Positions 1 to 8,184 of a stretch of DNA of 64,000 nt are shown one piece after another. Positions within the stretch are counted from its first letter, which is position 1. The number at the start of each line of letters is the position of its first letter. The position numbers and the translations under genes are program-made. The DNA is from Verrucosispora sp. NA02020 (GTDB lineage: Bacteria > Actinomycetota > Actinomycetes > Mycobacteriales > Micromonosporaceae): NCBI RefSeq assembly GCF_013364215.1, contig NZ_CP054923.1, forward strand, positions 5,518,001 through 5,582,000, given 5' to 3'. Below the pieces are notes generated by a model. It made no database searches, was not told where the DNA came from, and was given only the letters and a program-made list of their open reading frames with translations.

Positions 1-562
1 GGTAGTTACGGCCGTAGACGCCCCACTGGGTGAAGTAGCCGACCACCTTCTGGCCGCTCGGCGGCGGCGTGGTCGGGGGCGGGGTGGTGGGCGGTGGAGT
101 CGTGGGCGGAGCGGTGGTCGGCGGGGTGGTGGTGGGCGGCGTCGTGGTGGGCGGCGGGGTGCCACCGCCGCAGGCCACGCCGTTGACCGTGCAGTTCAAC
201 GGCGCCCGGTACGCACCGGTGCCGTTGTAGCCCCAGCTGAAGGAGGCGCCCGGGGCCAGTCCGCCGGCCCAGCTCTTCTTGACGGCCACGTAGCGGTTGC
301 CGTTACGGGTGACGTCGGCGTCCCAGGAGCTGCTGACGCTGGTGCCCGAGGGCAGCTCGAACTCGATGCGCCAGGTGCTGACGGTGGCGGTCGAGCCGTT
401 GGTGACGGTGACCCGCGTCTCGTGACCGGTCCCCCAGTCCGACACCCGGTTGAACGAGGTGGTCACGCTTCCGGCGCCGAACGCCGAGGCCATCGGGACC
501 GTGGCGACGGTCACCGCGACCACGGCGCCGACCCAGAGGGCCCGGCGGAGCGATCTCTTCAT
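1..562 (-). CDS. Secreted chitinase with N-terminal CBM2 (5' part, 3' end outside window)
   Basis: The visible 187 residues start at ATG (560-562), with a GGAG-type ribosome site just upstream. Order of parts: a signal peptide with basic start (MKRSLRR) and hydrophobic core up to about residue 27; a family 2 carbohydrate-binding module (about 28-130) with the usual tryptophans and two cysteines (NCTVNGVAC); a Thr/Pro linker of repeated PPTT units; then the start of a catalytic domain reading KVVGYFTQWGVYGRNY. That opening is typical of GH18 chitinases, so export and hydrolysis of chitin are inferred. The catalytic DxDxE motif lies beyond the window edge, so activity cannot be checked here. 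A short inverted repeat at 583-593 precedes the gene. The CBM2 and linker are certain; the GH18 call rests on about 16 residues. Confidence 0.85.
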   Translation of the reverse strand, partial: MKRSLRRALWVGAVVAVTVATVPMASAFGAGSVTTSFNRVSDWGTGHETRVTVTNGSTATVSTWRIEFELPSGTSVSSSWDADVTRNGNRYVAVKKSWAGGLAPGASFSWGYNGTGAYRAPLNCTVNGVACGGGTPPPTTTPPTTTPPTTAPPTTPPPTTPPPTTPPPSGQKVVGYFTQWGVYGRNY

Positions 563-582
563 GTGGCGTCTCCAAACAGTTA

Positions 583-593
583 GGAAACTTTCC
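583..593. promoter_or_regulatory. Inverted repeat GGAAA-C-TTTCC upstream of chitinase
   Basis: A perfect 5-bp inverted repeat with a one-base centre lies 21 bp upstream of the chitinase start, within the likely 5' untranslated region. I recall similar GGAAAnTTTCC sequences in front of extracellular glycoside hydrolase genes of Micromonospora-type organisms. Operator function is inferred. A transcript-level role is equally possible. Confidence 0.4.
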
Positions 594-844
594 AAAAGGA
601 TGAGGAGACGCTACTCACACGACACCACTTCGTCAAGATGTGCATCTTTCGATCTTCGGAGGACGGAAGCCCCCGGCTGAACCCCCCAGGGCTGGATCTC
701 GTGCTTGAGATGGCCCGAGACGCTGCACACATGGCGGGCCGAGGTTGACGCCAGGCAGCGCGCTACGTCACCAGCGACGAGTCACGCGGAGAGCTGCGCC
801 AGCCGTGGCCGGAGCAGGCGGGAGTGCGCCGACAGTGAGCTCTT

Positions 845-1624
845 TCATCCTGGGTTTCGGCTGGTCTGGACGTGATGCAGGGCGAGGATGGCTTGGATGA
901 TCGCGGTGGCGCGTCGGGCAGCAGCGGAGTTTGGTCAGGACTTTCCAGCCTTTGAGGGTGGCGACGGTGCGTTCGCCGACGGCCCGGATCTTGGCGTGGT
1001 GGCGGTTGACGGTCTTCTGCCGACGGGACAGTCGGGACCGGTGACGGTGCCGCTCGAACGGAGTGCGGATGCTGTCACCGGCGCCCTGGTACGCCTTGTC
1101 GGCGAAGGTCATCACGTTCGCGCTGTTCAGTGCGTCGATTAGGCCGTTGGTGCGGGCGGCGGCCAGGTCATGGGCCGCACCAGGCAGGGCAGGCGACGCC
1201 CAGATCAGACGTCCGGCGCAGTCGGCGATGACCTGGACGTTCACTCCGTGGCGCTTATGTTTCCCGGAGTAGTACGGCCGCTGATCCGCGATCCGGTCGA
1301 TGGGGATGAGGGTGCCGTCGAGAATCGCGTACGCGAGCCGGCCGATGTGCCGGATGGCCGCGTTCAGGTCCTGGGCGTGTGCCGCGAGCAGGTCGATGGC
1401 TTCCCGGACGTATCGCCAGGCCGTGGTGACGCTGATCGCAAAGCCGCAGGCCGACGAGCGATGGTGTCGCCGTTGCGGAGATGGGCCAGGGCGAGTAGGG
1501 CCTGCCGGTCGGCGTCGAGACGCCACCACCGCCCTCGGCGGCGGGTGCGTTCGGCGCGGATGAGGTCGGCAAGGTGGCTCAGGGTGCGGCTGGACAACGC
1601 GACCGCAGACGGGTAAGACAGCAC
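845..1624 (-). pseudogene. IS5-like family DDE transposase, broken by two frameshifts
   Basis: The protein starts at GTG (1622-1624) with MLSYPSAVALSSRTLSHLAD and continues to LALAHLRNGDTIAR. Near 1448-1453 one base appears lost, and the sense frame moves to the one reading GFAISVTTAWRYVREAIDLL. DDE residues are visible: D in ILDGTLIPID, D in FADKAYQGAG, E in GERTVATLKGW. Near 905-916 a second shift occurs; the restored frame would read ATAIIQAILALHH and stop at 845-847. Intact relatives are single proteins of roughly 260 residues, so two independent shifts suggest decay rather than programmed frameshifting. The element's ends are not certain. A GAGGCTCTCGGTAAG-like left end near 1683 and a GAGCTC at about 837 are candidates. 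Confidence 0.85.
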
Positions 1625-1674
1625 AGCGAGGCTCCCGGTTGGGGCATCGGATCTTGGTCGACTGCTGTCTTACC
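1612..1674. repeat. 12-bp inverted repeat over transposase start
   Basis: GGTAAGACAGCA (1612-1623) is perfectly complementary to TGCTGTCTTACC (1663-1674), with a 39-nt spacer. The left arm covers codons 1-4 of the transposase pseudogene, including its GTG start. A shorter GAGGCTC/GAGCCTC pair (1628-1634 and 1677-1683) interleaves with it. In transcripts that read in from outside the element the hairpin would hide the start codon, a known way of limiting transposase synthesis in other IS elements. Here that is an inference. Confidence 0.5.
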
Positions 1675-1898
1675 GAGAGCCTCGTCCTATGTCGACACCT
1701 ACCTCCACCACACCCACCGTGACCAGGCCTATCACGATGAAAATGGCTCAGTCATCCAATACCCCCACTACGGTCGAGCGGGCTAATTCGGCAGGCGCGG
1801 CGTGGTGGAGGCAAGAAGTCGGGGCCACCTCATCGACGCGTGCACCGGCACGATTGGCAATCCCTCGAACGACATGCCGCTGGATCACAATCGCCTCT

Positions 1899-2143
1899 AC
1901 CGGTTCGAGCATCAAGCCCCGGCACCGTGCCACGGTGCCGGGGCACGGTGCCGGGGCACGGTGCCGGGGCACGGTGCCGGGGCACGGTGCCGGGGCACGG
2001 TGCCGGGGCACGGTGCCGGGGCACGGTGCCGGGGCACGGTGCCGGGGCACGGTGCCGGGGCACGGTGCCGGGGCACGGTGCCGGGGCACGGTGCCGGGGC
2101 ACGGTGCCGGGGCACGGTGCCGGGGCTTGATGCTCGAACCGGT
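1899..2143. repeat. 33-bp-armed palindrome with 15 tandem 13-bp units at its apex
   Basis: The left arm (1899-1931) begins ACCGGTTCGAGCATCAAGCC. The right arm (2111-2143) is its exact reverse complement. Between and overlapping them are 15 uninterrupted copies of CACGGTGCCGGGG (1931-2125; 15 x 13 = 195 bp). Each unit contains GGCACGGTGCC, itself a near-palindrome with one central mismatch, identical to the arm apex. The simplest reading is an ancestral intergenic hairpin whose loop-proximal sequence was amplified by slippage. No credible gene overlaps it; the long open frames across it merely translate the repeat (units such as RGTVPGHGAGARC). Confidence 0.9.
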
Positions 2144-2312
2144 CCCACCGATGGAGCGGCTGGTACAACCGCCATGGACCTGGCCTACCTGCCGCCCAAC
2201 GAGCCAACCAATGCGCTCATCACCCCAGCCGGCAAGTTCTGTCAGAGCCCAGGCCTTCACCAGACTCGGGGCGGATCAAAAGAGCCGTCACTCGGACAGC
2301 CTCAAATTAGGT

Positions 2313-2885
2313 TTAGGCTGCTGAAGCTTCGTTTGGCTCGATACGGTTAGGTTCAAGTCGACTATTCGAATGCCCATCCTCCCTCAACTGCTCTGCGTCA
2401 TCGCCTTTAACAGCTGCCGCTCGCTGCTGATGCCGACTCGCAAAGAACCACAGAGAACCAACCGCCACCAAAAGGACCACGTGGACAGCGGGACTACTGC
2501 CTCCTTCATGGAGCCAACCTCCCCACCCCTGCATGACTCCTATGGGTAGGCTAACCTCCGCATTATTGCTCGGCGCGATGGCAAACGACAACGAGACAAG
2601 CAAGGCGACCGAGAAGATAAAGCCAGCGATGTACGTCATCTTGGATCGCTGGGAACGCTTTCGTATCCCCACGGTGAGTGAGTACAAGACTAAGCTACTC
2701 AAGGATGCGATCCCAAACATCGGCAGGATCGGCAGACGTGGAGAGCTGACGGCTACTACCACATTCCTCAAATCGAACACTGCACCTGCCTGCAATCCAA
2801 TAACTTGGATACCGAGGAGGCCAACAATAAAGATGAACACAGCCCCGACGGCCATTCCGCAAGCGCCCCAAGCCGCACTCTTCAC
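2313..2885 (-). CDS. Four-helix membrane protein of unknown function
   Basis: I do not recognise this 190-residue protein. It has four hydrophobic segments (about 10-34, 57-77, 86-107 and 137-157), separated by short loops. A basic KRSQRSK stretch follows the second, and a hydrophilic charged C-terminal tail (KGDDAEQLREDGHSNS) ends the protein. An ATG lies 21 bp further upstream, but the GTG at 2883-2885 is preferred because GAGG (2893-2896) stands seven bases in front of it. The gene follows two secreted-protein genes on the same strand and is probably the last of a four-gene operon. Base composition and codon use are clearly less GC-rich than in the flanking chromosome, which suggests acquisition. 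Confidence 0.65.
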   Translation of the reverse strand: MKSAAWGACGMAVGAVFIFIVGLLGIQVIGLQAGAVFDLRNVVVAVSSPRLPILPMFGIASLSSLVLYSLTVGIRKRSQRSKMTYIAGFIFSVALLVSLSFAIAPSNNAEVSLPIGVMQGWGGWLHEGGSSPAVHVVLLVAVGSLWFFASRHQQRAAAVKGDDAEQLREDGHSNSRLEPNRIEPNEASAA

Positions 2886-2892
2886 TCGGCAA

Positions 2893-2896
2893 CCTC
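2893..2896 (-). promoter_or_regulatory. Ribosome binding site deciding the start of the membrane protein
   Basis: Minus-strand GAGG lies 7 nt upstream of GTG 2883-2885. It overlaps codons that would belong to the protein if the upstream ATG (2904-2906) were used, so it favours the shorter 190-residue form. Confidence 0.5.
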
Positions 2897-2933
2897 TTCG
2901 ATGCATCGACGACCGTGATCGCTATTCACTGCA

Positions 2934-3347
2934 TCACCAATATACCCAACAGCTGATAGGAGCTGAACCGCCAACACCGCTGGCTGTCCAGTAGCACTTG
3001 CTATATAGACTGGAGTACCGCTGATGGGAGAGGTAAACAAAAGCAGGGGAGTCGCCGGATGCGCGACCAACCTCGCTATATCCAGGGGCATCGTAATAGC
3101 TGACAATCACACTTCTCCCCACGCCCAGATCCGTACCCACTTGGCCACCTGTGATGCTCGAACGAAGCCCAGAATAACGAGGCTGCGATTCGGGGGTCCT
3201 GACCTTATTGGCATACTGGTAACTCGCTGCATGCGCAGCAGGAATAGCGATGCTTGACACCACGGAGAACAGAGTAACGAATATTCCCAACCGTGCAATA
3301 ATCTGTGGGCGGCGGGTGTCGAACGAGTACTGGTGGGAATCCATCAC
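2934..3347 (-). CDS. Small secreted two-cysteine protein, paralogue of the 3976-4449 product
   Basis: The 137-residue product has a hydrophobic signal segment (about residues 18-37) and a likely cleavage after PAAHA, followed by ASYQYANKV. The mature part shares a pattern with the gene at 3976-4449: AASY-YAN, T-E-Q-R-SG-R-SITGG, a YY..PGY-G-A block, and KCYW followed by a final cysteine about 13 residues on. Only those two cysteines are present in the mature form, so one disulfide is plausible. The chain ends in aromatic residues (CWVYW). The start is GTG 3345-3347 with AGGG six bases upstream; ATG 3342-3344 is the alternative. The preceding gene stops 8 bp upstream. I know no family with this signature. 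Export is well supported; function is unknown. Confidence 0.7.
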   Translation of the reverse strand: MMDSHQYSFDTRRPQIIARLGIFVTLFSVVSSIAIPAAHAASYQYANKVRTPESQPRYSGLRSSITGGQVGTDLGVGRSVIVSYYDAPGYSEVGRASGDSPAFVYLSHQRYSSLYSKCYWTASGVGGSAPISCWVYW

Positions 3348-3355
3348 GGCGAACC

Positions 3356-3943
3356 CTATCGCCCCTCGGAAGGGATAGGGGAAAAGCGGAAGGAACTTCC
3401 GTCGCTCCTCCGCACTTCTGATCCTTTCCAGCCGGATGTCGCCTTCGAGCGGACGGTCAAGAGATTCGCGCCTGGAACGACCCTCCCTTTCTGCCTGGGG
3501 TCGTAGCTCTCCGCACCGAGCTCGGTAGGATCAATATCGGCTGGTAGCAGATACGCCTCCGCAGTCTGGCCGTCGCCACCAGCAACGAGCCCCAGCCCCT
3601 TCTTGTAGAAGTCAGTCACGTAAGTGCATGTTGATGCTGACACCTCGTTGCCACCACTGATCTGGAGGATCAAACATACCTGCGAAGTTCCAGCACGACC
3701 GACCCAGTAATTCGCAACGTCGTCTCTCCCGAGATACCGCACTGATTCTTGCGAGACGTTACCGAGTTTGTCGAGCTCAACGCTTGCAGGCACGCGATCT
3801 TGAACGGATTGCTGAACGGCGAGCACCGGCAGCATTTCTTCGATACTCGTTCGAGAATCGTCTCCTGCGATCGCTGGAAGCGCCGTCGACAGCACGATCA
3901 ACCCCGCTACACCAGCCGTTGCAATAGTGGTTGCAGTTCTCAT
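3356..3943 (-). CDS. Secreted protein of unknown function
   Basis: The 195-residue reading starts at ATG 3941-3943 (MRTATTIATAGVAG), giving a normal signal peptide with cleavage near ALPAIAG. A longer in-frame extension exists but would bury the signal sequence. The mature part is polar and holds two cysteines (SQVCLILQ and SASTCTYV), about 14 residues apart, within a segment reading DDVANYWVGRAGTSQVC. It ends without a membrane anchor. The gene lies between the two paralogous small secreted genes on the same strand, separated by 32 and 8 bp, so all are probably cotranscribed. Composition is lower in GC than the core chromosome. I cannot assign a family. Confidence 0.65.
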   Translation of the reverse strand: MRTATTIATAGVAGLIVLSTALPAIAGDDSRTSIEEMLPVLAVQQSVQDRVPASVELDKLGNVSQESVRYLGRDDVANYWVGRAGTSQVCLILQISGGNEVSASTCTYVTDFYKKGLGLVAGGDGQTAEAYLLPADIDPTELGAESYDPRQKGRVVPGANLLTVRSKATSGWKGSEVRRSDGSSFRFSPIPSEGR

Positions 3944-3975
3944 TGAGGATTCCAATCGTGTGTTCTCGAGGAACT

Positions 3976-4449
3976 CTAGTTCCGGGAAGCGCAGGTGATT
4001 TTCAAGTTTCCGATGTTTTGGTTTGTAAAAGGCCAGTCCCAATAGCACTTCTGTCGTGCGTCTGTCACCCGAGCATGGGTCATGCTGGTGTTTCCTGCTG
4101 ATTTAGCAAGACCAATTGTTCGGTAGCCAGGATGCGCGTAGTACGTTTCGATTACGTTGATTGCGGGAGCACCGTCAGCACTGAAGCTTGTCTCTGCGAA
4201 ACCGCCCGTAATCGAAGGTCGCACCCCCGAGTCGCGAACTTGAAATTCCGCAGTGGACAATTGGTTCGCATAGTAGTAATAACTAGCAGCATGCGCTAGT
4301 GGAGCCGCGAGGAGTGCTATAGAGACAGCGAGCGCCACGACCACCGAGCAGTTTCTTAGATTCCTTACGATCGACCCCACCGACGTTGTAGAAATTTGCA
4401 AACTAGCAGCTGACTGGCCGGTACCCACATCCACCCCATTCTTTGCCAC
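3976..4449 (-). CDS. Secreted two-cysteine protein, paralogue of the 2934-3347 product
   Basis: The 157-residue product begins at GTG 4447-4449, chosen because AGGGA lies five bases upstream; a GTG at 4465-4467 would add six residues. A hydrophobic stretch ending LLAAPLAHA gives a signal peptide with a long N-region. GTG at about residue 24, just before GSIVRNLRNC, is a third possible start but has no ribosome site. The mature chain (ASYYYYANQLSTAEFQVRDSG) matches the paralogue in SITGG, YYAHPGY and KCYW...C. As the first gene of the low-GC cluster it is preceded by an AT-rich region with a possible TATAGT -10 box. Function unknown; export likely. Confidence 0.65.
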   Translation of the reverse strand: MAKNGVDVGTGQSAASLQISTTSVGSIVRNLRNCSVVVALAVSIALLAAPLAHAASYYYYANQLSTAEFQVRDSGVRPSITGGFAETSFSADGAPAINVIETYYAHPGYRTIGLAKSAGNTSMTHARVTDARQKCYWDWPFTNQNIGNLKITCASRN

Positions 4450-4498
4450 ACGGTTCCCTGCTCTCACGCCTCGGCACCCCTATCTAGAATGATCACGA

Positions 4499-4504
4499 AC
4501 TATA
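4499..4504 (-). promoter_or_regulatory. Possible -10 element for the low-GC secreted-protein cluster
   Basis: Minus-strand TATAGT lies about 50 bp upstream of the first gene's preferred start, in a locally AT-rich stretch. No convincing -35 hexamer at 17-19 bp was found, so this is only a candidate. Confidence 0.25.
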
Positions 4505-4540
4505 CAGTAGATTCATTGATTTCGCTAGACGAATGGGCTT

Positions 4541-4700
4541 GCCACTGAGTGCCCTACGTCGACCTCGACATCCGCCAGCTGCGCCGCTCCCACGCTCTGA
4601 ACTGGATCAACGCCAGGGCATCCCAGCTCTTCGAAGTGGAGCGGGGTTGATGACGGGCGACCACACGGATATGACGGACCCGCAGCTCGGCGGGGACTGA
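4541..4700 (+). other. Short coding remnant: two overlapping mini-frames
   Basis: An open stretch translates as VPYVDLDIRQLRRSHALNW and continues to end QLFEVERG, stopping at a TGA that overlaps an ATG opening a 16-codon frame (MTGDHTDMTDPQLGGD). The stop-start overlap looks like translational coupling in a real operon, and the amphipathic Arg/Leu composition looks coding. No start or upstream part is present. I read it as the tail of a deleted gene, perhaps from a mobile element, but cannot name it. The rest of 4450-4930 holds no other gene. Confidence 0.3.
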
Positions 4701-4731
4701 TATGTAGATGCCATGGAGAATCTGTCTCGGT

Positions 4732-4761
4732 TTCATGAAGTTCTCATGTAGATTTCATGAA
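4732..4761. repeat. Two TTCATGAA palindromes 22 bp apart
   Basis: The 8-bp palindrome TTCATGAA occurs at 4732-4739 and 4754-4761, spaced about two helical turns, roughly 170 bp upstream of the betaine importer operon. AT-rich palindromes are rare in this chromosome. They could be a regulator site or a leftover of the adjacent acquired segment. Confidence 0.4.
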
Positions 4762-4930
4762 TGCTCGAGTCAGCCGGCTAAACCGTGCGCACTCGGTACG
4801 CCCAGTGGGCAACGAGATGGCAACGAGGTTGCCGACCACAGAAGTCGCCCGGGTAGGCTCGAGGCTCGCTCATCTGGGACTGTCCTGAATTCGGCCAGCC
4901 CACGGCGCGAAAGATTGTCAATGCCTTTGG

Positions 4931-6298
4931 ATGGAGACCGTGTCCGCACTCAGAGTGAACTCCCTGTACAAGGTCTACGGGAACCGCGCCGACAAGGCGA
5001 TGGAAATCCTCAGGAACAGCGCAGGCAGGGACGAGGAACTGGCAGGTCTACCGGTCACGGCTGCGGTCGTCGACGCGAACTTCGAGGTCAGACGCGGCGA
5101 GATCTTCGTGGTCATGGGCCTGTCCGGCTCGGGGAAGTCCACCCTGATCCGGATGCTCAACGGGCTGCTGCCCGCCACGCACGGCACGGTGGAGGTCGAC
5201 GGGGTCGACATCACCACGCTCAAGCCCGCCGCGCTACGCAAGCTACGCCGCGAGAAGATCAGCATGGTCTTCCAGCACTTCGCGCTCCAGCCGCACCGGT
5301 CGGTGCTGGACAACGCCGGCTACGCGCTTGAGGTCGCGGGCATGCCCCGCGCCGAGCGCCGGGAGAAGGCGCTGCAGGCGCTCCGGATGGTCGACCTGGA
5401 CAAGTGGGCGGACAAGCTGCCGCAGGAACTGTCCGGCGGCATGCGCCAGCGGGTCGGTCTGGCCCGCGCGCTCGCCGCCGGCACCGACATCATGCTCATG
5501 GACGAGGCCTTCTCCGCGCTCGATCCGCTCATCCGCCGCGAGGTGCAGGACCAGCTCCTCGAACTACAGGCCGAGCTCGGCAAGACGATCGTGTTCATCA
5601 CGCACGACCTCAACGAGGCGATGCGCCTCGGCGACCGGATCGCGGTCATGCGTGCCGGCCGGATCGTCCAGATCGGCACCGCCGAGGAGATCCTCACCGA
5701 CCCGTCCAACGACTACGTCGCCCAGTTCGTCGCCGACGTCGACCGGACCAGGATCCTCACCGCGGCGGCGGTCATGGAACGGCCGCTCGGCGTCGTGGAC
5801 GTGAACTCCGGCCCGCGGGTGGCCGCTCGCGTGCTGCGTGAGACCCAGACGTCAGCCGTCTACATCACCGGCCGCGACAAGCGGTACCTGGGCACCGTGA
5901 CCGCCGACGACGCCACCCGGGCGGTCCGGGACGGAATGACCAACCTCCAGGAGATCGTGTCGACCGAGTACGCCCGAATGGTCGACGACACGACGCCGGT
6001 GGCCGACATCTTCGCGCCCTGTGCCGAGAGCCCGGCGCCCGTCGCCGTGGTCGACGCAGCCGGGCGGCTCGCCGGCGTGATTCCACGGGTCACGCTGTTG
6101 AGCGCCCTGGGCAGCATCAGCGCTGACATCGGCGAGCACACCGCCACGCCGGAGCCCGCCGGGACGACGCCGACCGCCGACGCGGTCCAGGCGGGCGGAA
6201 CGGCCGACACGACGCCGCCCGGAAGCGACACCGCACCGCAGGTACCGGTCCAGGTGGTTGCCGAGCCATCGGTCCGCCTCACGGGAGGATCCGCGTGA
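4931..6298 (+). CDS. proV: Glycine betaine/proline ABC importer, ATP-binding subunit
   Basis: The 455-residue cytoplasmic ATPase powers uptake of compatible solutes with the permease and binding protein encoded next. Walker A is GLSGSGKST at 63-71, the ABC signature LSGGMRQR at 167-174, Walker B IMLMDEAFSALD at 187-198 and the H-loop ITHDL at 223-227. These positions and the FQHFALQPHRSV segment match the ProV/OpuAA family. A C-terminal region (about 275-395) corresponds to the paired CBS modules that sense ionic strength in OpuA. It is followed by a Thr/Pro-rich tail of some 50 residues. ATG 4931 lacks a clear ribosome site; GTG 4940 is an alternative. The last bases overlap proW. Confidence 0.95.
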   Translation: METVSALRVNSLYKVYGNRADKAMEILRNSAGRDEELAGLPVTAAVVDANFEVRRGEIFVVMGLSGSGKSTLIRMLNGLLPATHGTVEVDGVDITTLKPAALRKLRREKISMVFQHFALQPHRSVLDNAGYALEVAGMPRAERREKALQALRMVDLDKWADKLPQELSGGMRQRVGLARALAAGTDIMLMDEAFSALDPLIRREVQDQLLELQAELGKTIVFITHDLNEAMRLGDRIAVMRAGRIVQIGTAEEILTDPSNDYVAQFVADVDRTRILTAAAVMERPLGVVDVNSGPRVAARVLRETQTSAVYITGRDKRYLGTVTADDATRAVRDGMTNLQEIVSTEYARMVDDTTPVADIFAPCAESPAPVAVVDAAGRLAGVIPRVTLLSALGSISADIGEHTATPEPAGTTPTADAVQAGGTADTTPPGSDTAPQVPVQVVAEPSVRLTGGSA

Positions 6299-7182
6299 AC
6301 CGCGCCGACGGCCTCGACGACATGCTGCCGTACATCCGGATCGGCGACGCGTTCAAGACCGCCGTCGACTGGTCGAGAGAACATCTGTCCGCTGTCTTCG
6401 ACGGCATCGCCGCCACCGTCGACGCGCTGGTCGAGCCGCTCGTCGACCTACTGACCGCGCCACCGGCGATCGTCATGGTGCTGATCTTCGCCGGCCTCGG
6501 CTGGTGGCTGCGGAGCTGGAAGTTCGGCCTGGGCACCTTGCTCGGACTCGGCATGGTGGCCGGGATGCCGATCTGGGACCAGACCATGAGCACCCTGGCA
6601 CTGGTCCTGGTGGCCAGCGGCCTCGCCCTGCTGCTGGCCATACCCGTGGGCATCTTCATTTCGGAGAGCCGCCGTGCCTCGGCAGTCGTCCGGCCGATCC
6701 TCGACCTGATGCAGACGATGCCCGCGTTCGTCTACCTGATCCCGGCCATCTTCTACTTCGGCGTCGGCGTAGTGCCCGGCGCGCTGGCCACCGTGGTGTT
6801 CAGCATGCCGCCCGGCGTACGCCTGACCGAGTTGGGCCTGCGCCAGGTCGACCGGGAGGTCGTCGAGGCCGGCGAGGCGTTCGGCGCTTCGCCGTGGAAG
6901 ATCCTGCTGCGTACCAAGCTGCCGCTGGCCCTGCCCACCATCATGACCGGCGTCAACCAGGTCATCATGCTGGCGCTGTCGATGGTCGTCATCGCCGGCA
7001 TGGTCGGTGCCGGCGGTCTCGGTGAGGTGATCACGACGGCACTCTTCCGGGCCCAGGTCGGCGCGGGCTTCGAGGGCGGCATCGCCGTGGTGATCCTGGC
7101 GGTGGTGCTCGACCGTCTCACCGATTCGATCGGCGCGCGTACCGCGTCCGCGAAGGCGCAACGCGCCATGCAACGAGCCTGA
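6295..7182 (+). CDS. proW: Glycine betaine/proline ABC importer, permease subunit
   Basis: The 295-residue membrane protein is the channel partner of the preceding ATPase. GTG 6295-6297 overlaps the proV stop (GTGA), and GGAGGA stands just upstream, so the two are translationally coupled. The N-terminal 60 residues are soluble. Hydrophobic segments follow from about residue 58, with the binding-protein-dependent permease loop EAGEAFGASPWKILLRTKLPLALP, which contacts the ATPase (EAA motif), near 195-220. The region QTMPAFVYLIPAIFYFGVG matches ProW. Length is ordinary for single-domain ProW. It is the second gene of proVWX. Confidence 0.94.
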   Translation: MNRADGLDDMLPYIRIGDAFKTAVDWSREHLSAVFDGIAATVDALVEPLVDLLTAPPAIVMVLIFAGLGWWLRSWKFGLGTLLGLGMVAGMPIWDQTMSTLALVLVASGLALLLAIPVGIFISESRRASAVVRPILDLMQTMPAFVYLIPAIFYFGVGVVPGALATVVFSMPPGVRLTELGLRQVDREVVEAGEAFGASPWKILLRTKLPLALPTIMTGVNQVIMLALSMVVIAGMVGAGGLGEVITTALFRAQVGAGFEGGIAVVILAVVLDRLTDSIGARTASAKAQRAMQRA

Positions 7183-7281
7183 TCCCCCGTCCTGACCCAC
7201 GCAGGGAAGTCCCGTTGCCGGTGCCCTGCCTCGCTACCGCGAGTTCCGCCGGTGCACAGCAACGAGGGAAGGAAACTCCAC

Positions 7282-8184
7282 ATGTGGAGCAGAAAACTGG
7301 TGCGCCGGGTCGCGCTGGCGGCCACCGCCGCCCTGGCGCTGACCGGTGCCGCGGCCTGCGGCAACTCCGACGAGTCTGCCGGCGGTGACAACAAGAAGAT
7401 CACCATCGGCTACATGTCCTGGGACGAGGCCATCGCCGCCTCGTACCTCTGGAAGAACCTGCTGGAGGAGAAGGGCTACGAGGTCGAGCTGAAGAATATC
7501 GAGGCCGGAATCGTCTACCAGGGTCTGGCGACCGGCGACATCGACCTCTTCCTCGACAGCTGGCTGCCGCAGACGCACGCCGACTACATGAAGGAGTACG
7601 GCGACAAGCTCGAGAAGCTCGGCGTCTGGTACGACAACGCCAGCCTGAGCATCGCCGTGCCCGAGTACGTCAGCGACGTCAACTCGCTGGAGGACCTGGC
7701 CGCCAACGCCGACACCTTCAACGGCGAGATCATCGGCATCGAGGCTGGCGCCGGCCTGACCGCCGCCACCCAGGACAAGGTCATCCCGGAGTACGGTCTG
7801 ACCGGCAAGCTGAGCCTGAAGACCTCGTCGACCCCGGCCATGCTGGCCGCGCTGGACGGCGCGATCAAGGCCCAGAAGCCGATCGTGGTGACCCTGTGGC
7901 ACCCGCACTGGGCCTACGCGAACTACCAGCTGAAGGACCTGGCGGACCCGAAGGGCACCCTCGGCGCAACCGAGGAGATCAACACCCTGGCCCGTGAGGG
8001 CTTCAGCGCGGACTTCCCCGAGGTCGCCGAGATGCTGAAGAAGTTCAAGATGGACAACCAGCAGCTCGGCTCGCTGGAAGACCTGATGTTCAACGTGCAC
8101 CAGGACGACGAGGAGAAGGCCGTGGAGGAGTGGCTGAAGGCCAACCCGGACTACGCCGGCACGGTCGACGCCGCCACCTCCTGA
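7282..8184 (+). CDS. proX: Glycine betaine-binding lipoprotein of the ABC importer
   Basis: The 300-residue substrate-binding protein starts at ATG 7282 after a GAAGGAAA site. The lipobox LTGAAAC puts the lipidated cysteine at about residue 26. The mature chain opens KKITIGYMSWDEAIAASYLWKNLLEEKGY and has FLDSWLPQTHADY and VTLWHPHWAYANY. Tryptophans and aromatic residues at those places form the cage that holds quaternary amines in OpuAC/ProX proteins. It sits 99 bp after proW and closes the operon. Related lipoproteins can prefer proline betaine or choline; sequence alone does not separate these. Confidence 0.94.
   Translation: MWSRKLVRRVALAATAALALTGAAACGNSDESAGGDNKKITIGYMSWDEAIAASYLWKNLLEEKGYEVELKNIEAGIVYQGLATGDIDLFLDSWLPQTHADYMKEYGDKLEKLGVWYDNASLSIAVPEYVSDVNSLEDLAANADTFNGEIIGIEAGAGLTAATQDKVIPEYGLTGKLSLKTSSTPAMLAALDGAIKAQKPIVVTLWHPHWAYANYQLKDLADPKGTLGATEEINTLAREGFSADFPEVAEMLKKFKMDNQQLGSLEDLMFNVHQDDEEKAVEEWLKANPDYAGTVDAATS

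Follow-up and report, generated by a model that had tools for sequence, protein, structure and literature searches.

The window, by which we mean the whole 64,000-nucleotide stretch of DNA analysed here, carries a cluster of four genes on the minus strand, named A to D in the order of their transcription, with a transposase gene beside it:

768-1529, minus strand: open reading frame of an IS5-type transposase (DDE_Tnp_4), a neighbour outside the module
2313-2906, minus strand: gene D, a putative membrane protein with four predicted helices
2934-3347, minus strand: gene C, a putative secreted protein and paralogue of A, with a GTG start
3356-3943 (or 3946), minus strand: gene B, a putative secreted protein of 195 aa
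3976-4467, minus strand: gene A, a putative secreted protein and paralogue of C, with an uncertain GTG start

The intergenic gaps, in the order of transcription, measure 32, 8 and 27 bp, which corrects the range of 8-48 bp given in an earlier note on this DNA; the four minus-strand open reading frames described there are present at the positions it gave. With a GC content of 0.550, against 0.713 for the whole window, the cluster is the window's lowest-GC stretch of 2155 bp in a scan in 100-bp steps, in keeping with that note's remark that its composition falls below that of the flanks. Since genes A and C are poorer in GC than their own locus in the other loci that we read as well, the low GC is partly intrinsic to these genes, and is alone no proof of recent transfer.

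The transposase and the repeat array that the note had placed beside the cluster are both real. An N-terminal part of the IS5-type transposase lies in another frame, at 1364-1624 (element 768-1624), so that the gene may be defective or depend on a frameshift. In the array, at window positions 1899-2143, a 13-bp near-palindromic unit, CACGGTGCCGGGG, stands fifteen times in perfect tandem, bounded by 33-bp ends that are perfect inverted repeats; a 24-bp piece taken from these ends was found nowhere else in the genome at up to 2 mismatches. On the other side of the cluster, between gene A and an ABC transporter gene, a short remnant at 4560-4650 resembles, to the eye, the last part of a coding sequence. 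Homology to two relatives begins at window position 4933, and comparison with these two revealed no clean empty site.

Read by eye, A, B and C each begin with a signal-peptide-like N-terminus with an AxA-type end, which would leave mature proteins of about 102, 170 and 96 aa, respectively, each with two cysteines, as the note had counted them. In gene A, a long N-terminal extension ahead of the signal peptide may be untranslated. A and C share 42% identity (E 2.8e-15), and their mature forms reach a Smith-Waterman score of 136, where the maximum among 1000 shuffles was 60; on this comparison, which goes well beyond the shuffled controls, the two are true paralogues of shared origin, as had been suspected. 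The motifs on which that suspicion was founded (AAS(Y), SITGG, PGY and KCYW...C) are all present in A/C, with CYW...C standing near the C-terminus of the gene A product and the C protein ending in CWVYW. Mature A/C are rich in aromatic residues, F/W/Y making up 14-15 of about 100 positions. Across the A/C alignment only the two cysteines are invariant (24/24 rows), a tryptophan two residues past the first of them being nearly so; with only this pair fixed, A/C appear to diverge fast around a constant cysteine frame. A structure model of C places six strands after the signal helix, at low confidence (mean pLDDT 59.8, pTM 0.38), and comparison of this weak model with solved structures gave no useful match.

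Protein B carries two invariant cysteines, at positions 90 and 106, and across its alignment D49, C90, C106 and P134 are invariant in 17/17 rows; among the exported components of the module it is the best conserved. Protein D contains four hydrophobic segments (18-36, 63-81, 93-111 and 138-156), matching the four membrane helices previously ascribed to it, and loop charge suggests that both of its ends are probably inside.

None of these proteins could be placed in a described family. Pfam and NCBIfam gave nothing near the cut-off for A, B, C or D, PHROGs gave no match for the cluster proteins, and no PADLOC model of a known anti-phage defence system matched credibly among 7 proteins, in agreement with the note's statement that no known signature was recognised. 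A match of A to a PADLOC reverse-transcriptase model (E 0.011) was taken as chance. When 17 A/C members were searched against Pfam, scattered single matches appeared, the best of them to DUF2162 (E 4.9e-4, one member). The protein database held 4 A/C-related, 8 B-related (the window's own included) and 2 D-related proteins, none with a precomputed Pfam domain; the B-like domain is apparently unnamed and may deserve a family of its own. A literature search found no publication describing an A-B-C-D module.

The gene order that the note had seen in a single genome is kept elsewhere. Genome G943, which belongs to another order, has a complete A-B-C-D cluster between its ffh and rimM genes, and its D matches a profile built without it at E 1.7e-19. 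Third-position GC is 0.50-0.57 in this cluster versus 0.73-0.85 in nine other open reading frames (on a rough gene call). In the A/C tree, the window's A pairs with the A of G943 (support 97/93), which argues that both clusters share a distinct A lineage, while A and C positions are not separated over the tree as a whole. Homologues of B, C and D follow each other in the same order, with gaps of 3 and 6 bp, on a 4.8-kb contig of a metagenome-assembled genome (L005) that is binned, not with certainty, as Leucobacter; this was the single locus returned by a scan of genome contigs with the B alignment, and the 625 bp ahead of its B showed no recognisable A-type gene. A-B-C without a firm D occurs in five loci. 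One is in G408, where the A/C alignment, searched against 354 genomes of the family, detected A-like, B-like and C-like genes, co-directional and in that order. Another is on the Agreia plasmid pCOWG, detected by a plasmid tblastn with B, where the A-like and C-like frames are absent from the plasmid's (incomplete) gene table. The remaining three, also co-directional, are in G808, G794 and G770; in G794 there is also a doubtful D-like frame (E 2.2e-4, and 0.0018 in a second test), which overlaps with gene C. Finally, G852 has A-B, and G913 has an A divergent from B-C.

To count such loci we called a match to A/C firm where it persisted with the signal peptide left out of the profile, the window itself being included. 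This gave 11 loci (the window, the Leucobacter contig, G408, pCOWG, G808, G794, G770, G943, G852, G913 and G630), whose rows, except that of G630, themselves belong to the mature-only profile. Among 199 genomes of the family of G808, the A/C profile matched 8, five of them firmly (G808, G794, G943, G852 and G913); in two further families it matched 1/22 and 3/149 genomes. B is adjacent or fused to A/C in 11/11 firm loci, a count that is biased because some of the loci were found with B. Among the 12 genomes first found by the A/C profile (E <= 0.001), four are firm (G408, G943, G852 and G913), and B is adjacent in 4/4; a further one, G746, is tentative and likewise has a B domain. Seven weaker candidates (G252, G280, G384, G832, G856, G866 and G1052; E 3.6e-4 to 9.1e-4) failed with the mature-only profile and were rejected as A/C carriers; four of these seven still match the full profile, mainly in its signal-peptide part (best G1052, E 3.3e-6), and in none of the seven did a firm B adjoin (one 63-aa frame reached E 0.015). 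The earlier note overlooked the constancy of B, which is found at every firm locus and, in other proteins, also without A/C.

The closest tie between these proteins is a fusion. G630 contains two adjacent genes whose products each have a B domain at the N-terminus and an A/C domain at the C-terminus. For the first product (309 aa), profiles built without it give E 1.5e-23 to B and 3.6e-9 to A/C, and the mature-only A/C profile, again without it, gives 1.2e-8. The second (a 393-aa frame) matches B at E 7e-28 and is weak to A/C once it is itself left out of the profile (4.8e-3; nothing at 0.05 with the A10 profile; 0.031 mature-only), and ends in the same Cys-Trp-Trp...Cys motif. By these matches, B-A/C fusion is firm in one genome, in one gene of G630. 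A fusion in the reverse order, in G746, is tentative: the C-terminal half of the protein (L101 5501-6400) is a B domain by profile (E 1.9e-8), its N-terminal half matches A/C at E 1e-8 with the signal peptide and 0.0079 without it, and both cysteine pairs appear lost. A sigma-factor-like gene lies, by eye, in the same region of G746. The strongest case for B and A/C belonging to one complex is the G630 fusion, which also speaks against B as an antidote and makes B look like a structural partner, and B and A/C probably act together outside the membrane.

A structural role of another kind would also suit such a fusion. A/C could be the subunits of a surface layer, coat or appendage, with B as assembly factor and D as anchor, and their diversification would then be surface variation that serves adhesion or the evasion of phages and predators. 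Besides the fusion, which fits subunits of one assembly, the aromatic-rich mature A/C and the dispensability of D agree with this, as does the first predicted extracytoplasmic loop of D, which contains a conserved GLQAGAVFDL stretch and is the protein's best conserved part (mean pairwise identity 0.52 among four D sequences, against 0.15-0.36 in the cytoplasmic parts). However, conservation is lacking in the second such loop (0.27 among the same four), no wall-binding or anchoring family was matched, and the module is rare among relatives, so that we consider a surface or coat module somewhat unlikely.

B ranges more widely than its partners. The B profile matched 2/354 genomes of the family and a wider profile (A5) 19/394 genomes of the class, the own genome counted in both. 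A/C lies beside or is fused to B in 5/19 of the latter (G000, G808, G794, G770 and G630), and in the other 14/19 the B domain, mostly part of a longer protein, had no A/C within about 1.5 kb. Another genome, G156, likewise carries a B domain (E 2.7e-19) without A/C. Longer actinobacterial proteins of this type (L015-L035) share the B domain with the module, with significant A5 matches, and differ from it in having no A/C within about 1.5 kb. In three other actinobacterial loci (L021, L028 and L029) there are two B-like domains per protein or in tandem genes, with a hydrophobic segment ahead by eye. Two of the A-B-C loci have a second B-related, lipoprotein-like gene just upstream, on the opposite strand in G808 (L050 4881-5297) and on the same strand in pCOWG (L012 4850-5287). 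Because B domains occur without A/C, B may serve more generally outside the cytoplasm, for instance as a sensing domain, and the module might then be one for signalling, with B binding a ligand, A/C acting as secreted ligands or co-receptors and D as relay or anchor. The many longer proteins in which B follows, by eye, a hydrophobic segment fit this, and several of them have an Arg-rich N-terminal part that presumably recalls anti-sigma proteins. By contrast, B of the A-B-C loci has just a signal-peptide-like segment, the open reading frames of window positions 1-7500, read by eye, showed no sigma factor or kinase, and A/C diverge fast; we regard a sensing role for the module as unlikely.

The distribution of D bears on the suggestion, made in the earlier note, of a toxin/immunity or bacteriocin layout. 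All genomic relatives of D that we found adjoin A/B/C genes, and in a search of 221 genomes of the class, a sample without some of the known loci, the own genome was the sole match. A homologous D is present in just 3/11 firm A/C loci (the window, the Leucobacter contig and G943), which is odd for an obligatory immunity gene. The classical form of the suggestion, in which A and C are toxins, D is their dedicated immunity protein and B an accessory, matches the layout in the window and in G943. Moreover, a four-helix membrane gene unrelated to D in sequence lies downstream of the G630 fusion genes, and unrelated immunity genes therefore remain conceivable where the D homologue is missing; against this, no membrane gene was recognised directly 3' of C in the open-reading-frame lists of G408, G808 and G913. 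We judge a classical toxin/immunity pair quite unlikely. The broader likeness to a bacteriocin layout has gained from the patchy spread, the plasmid carriage and the divergence of A/C, and has lost by the rarity of D and the fusion of B with A/C.

Several loci lie near genes of plasmids and mobile elements. The plasmid pCOWG, typed in PLSDB as non-mobilizable, carries a type IV conjugative DNA-transfer gene, about 5 kb from A-B-C, together with an SCO6880 family gene, a MobF relaxase, a restriction enzyme and a zeta toxin. An N-6 DNA methylase is encoded about 1.3 kb from the cluster genes in G808, a Mutator-type transposase about 4 kb from them in G794, and SSB and ParB genes are close to A-B of G852. 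Two further plasmids, pYJN5-2 (Paenarthrobacter; L098 5866-7365) and pAD51 (Arthrobacter), both conjugative by their typing, have next to IS21 genes a row of three: a B-like gene (E 1.5e-21), a gene for a small secreted protein with two cysteines, of which 113/127 residues are matched on the second of them, and one for a four-helix membrane protein. This operon resembles ours in the kind of its genes, B-like gene included, but its secreted and membrane proteins are unrelated in sequence, with no match to the A/C or D profile; it is possibly the same kind of module with other partners. A tblastn with the window's C and the A of G943 returned no plasmid, the known pCOWG copies being missed as well.

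These neighbours raise the possibility of a conjugation accessory, for mating contact or entry exclusion, that persists on chromosomes too. In its favour are the conjugative DNA-transfer gene near A-B-C on pCOWG, the B-like genes on two conjugative-typed plasmids, and the SSB and ParB genes near A-B in G852. Nevertheless, six B queries in tblastn added no plasmid beyond pCOWG, pAD51 and pYJN5-2, and no transfer gene was seen in the open-reading-frame lists of the window, G943, G808, G408, G770, G630 and G746, which were read mostly by eye, with few frames searched against Pfam. A function in conjugation is very unlikely in our estimation.

Two kinds of bacteriocin invite comparison. Lactococcin 972 folds as a beta-sandwich and is not known to have an invariant Cys pair; the present module differs in having such a pair, and in combining paralogous proteins with B. 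Mediterrocin, of the lactococcin 972 family (PF09683), has a Sec-type signal peptide and an 89-aa mature protein, and clusters of this type include a membrane protein and mobile elements, the partners being a seven-helix DUF1430 protein and an ABC protein (PMC12345188). The likeness, at most one of working, extends to the Sec-type signal, the short mature protein (96-102 aa in A/C), the membrane partner and the mobile elements, while D differs from DUF1430 in having four helices and no Pfam family above the cut-off. No ABC gene lies inside the A-B-C-D cluster. As 0/17 A/C members matched PF09683 at E up to 0.5, with the own genome giving no match either, and the partner genes differ, we do not file the module under lactococcin 972. 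Two-peptide (class IIb) bacteriocins likewise combine, in one operon, a pair of related small secreted proteins with a small membrane protein, and are exported with double-glycine leaders by a dedicated ABC exporter. The clustering of the related secreted pair A/C with the membrane protein D recalls them; in contrast, A/C have signal-peptide-like N-termini, about 100 aa and a Cys pair, and the cluster is without a dedicated ABC exporter. The ABC gene at 4931 is encoded on the opposite strand and, to the eye, resembles a glycine-betaine importer.

The recurrence of these genes together across orders, the B-A/C fusion and the lack of a match to curated families support the view, first put forward in the earlier note, of a possible undescribed system: A-B-C-D is an undescribed, patchily distributed accessory module. 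As a model of its working, we propose that the module spreads between actinobacteria and that A, B and C would be exported via the general (Sec) pathway. A/C would be small, disulfide-stapled, beta-rich paralogues that form one extracellular complex with B, in which B would be the constant scaffold, or hub, and A/C the diversifying business ends. The complex would act on the envelope of competing bacteria in the manner of a bacteriocin, and D, where present, would hold it at the producer's membrane or protect the producer. Export, disulfides, beta structure and the topology of D are here deduced from sequence features; gene order and fusion make an A-B-C complex reasonable to infer, while antagonism is conjectured from where the genes occur, what surrounds them and how they diverge, and the part given to D is a conjecture too. 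We regard this specific proposal, in which an extracellular complex would serve antagonism between bacteria and D would anchor it or shield the producer, as a tentative possibility. Put more broadly, and with about the same probability, the module may be a new kind of actinobacterial extracellular weapon or surface machine in which a B hub assembles interchangeable, fast-diverging, disulfide-stapled A/C proteins; it would travel on plasmids as well as chromosomal islands, and exchange or fusion of its partners and of the four-helix membrane gene would have rebuilt it.

Three protein families and the module that they form together are without a match in the curated libraries searched, yet their order is kept across actinobacterial orders and on a plasmid, and the fusion predicts that A, B and C meet in one extracellular complex. 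What is new here are the protein families and the gene arrangement, and the activity may be of a known kind. Should the module prove antibacterial, it would add a new class of secreted system for antagonism to a bacterial group already noted for its antibiotics; should it prove structural, it would be a new surface assembly.
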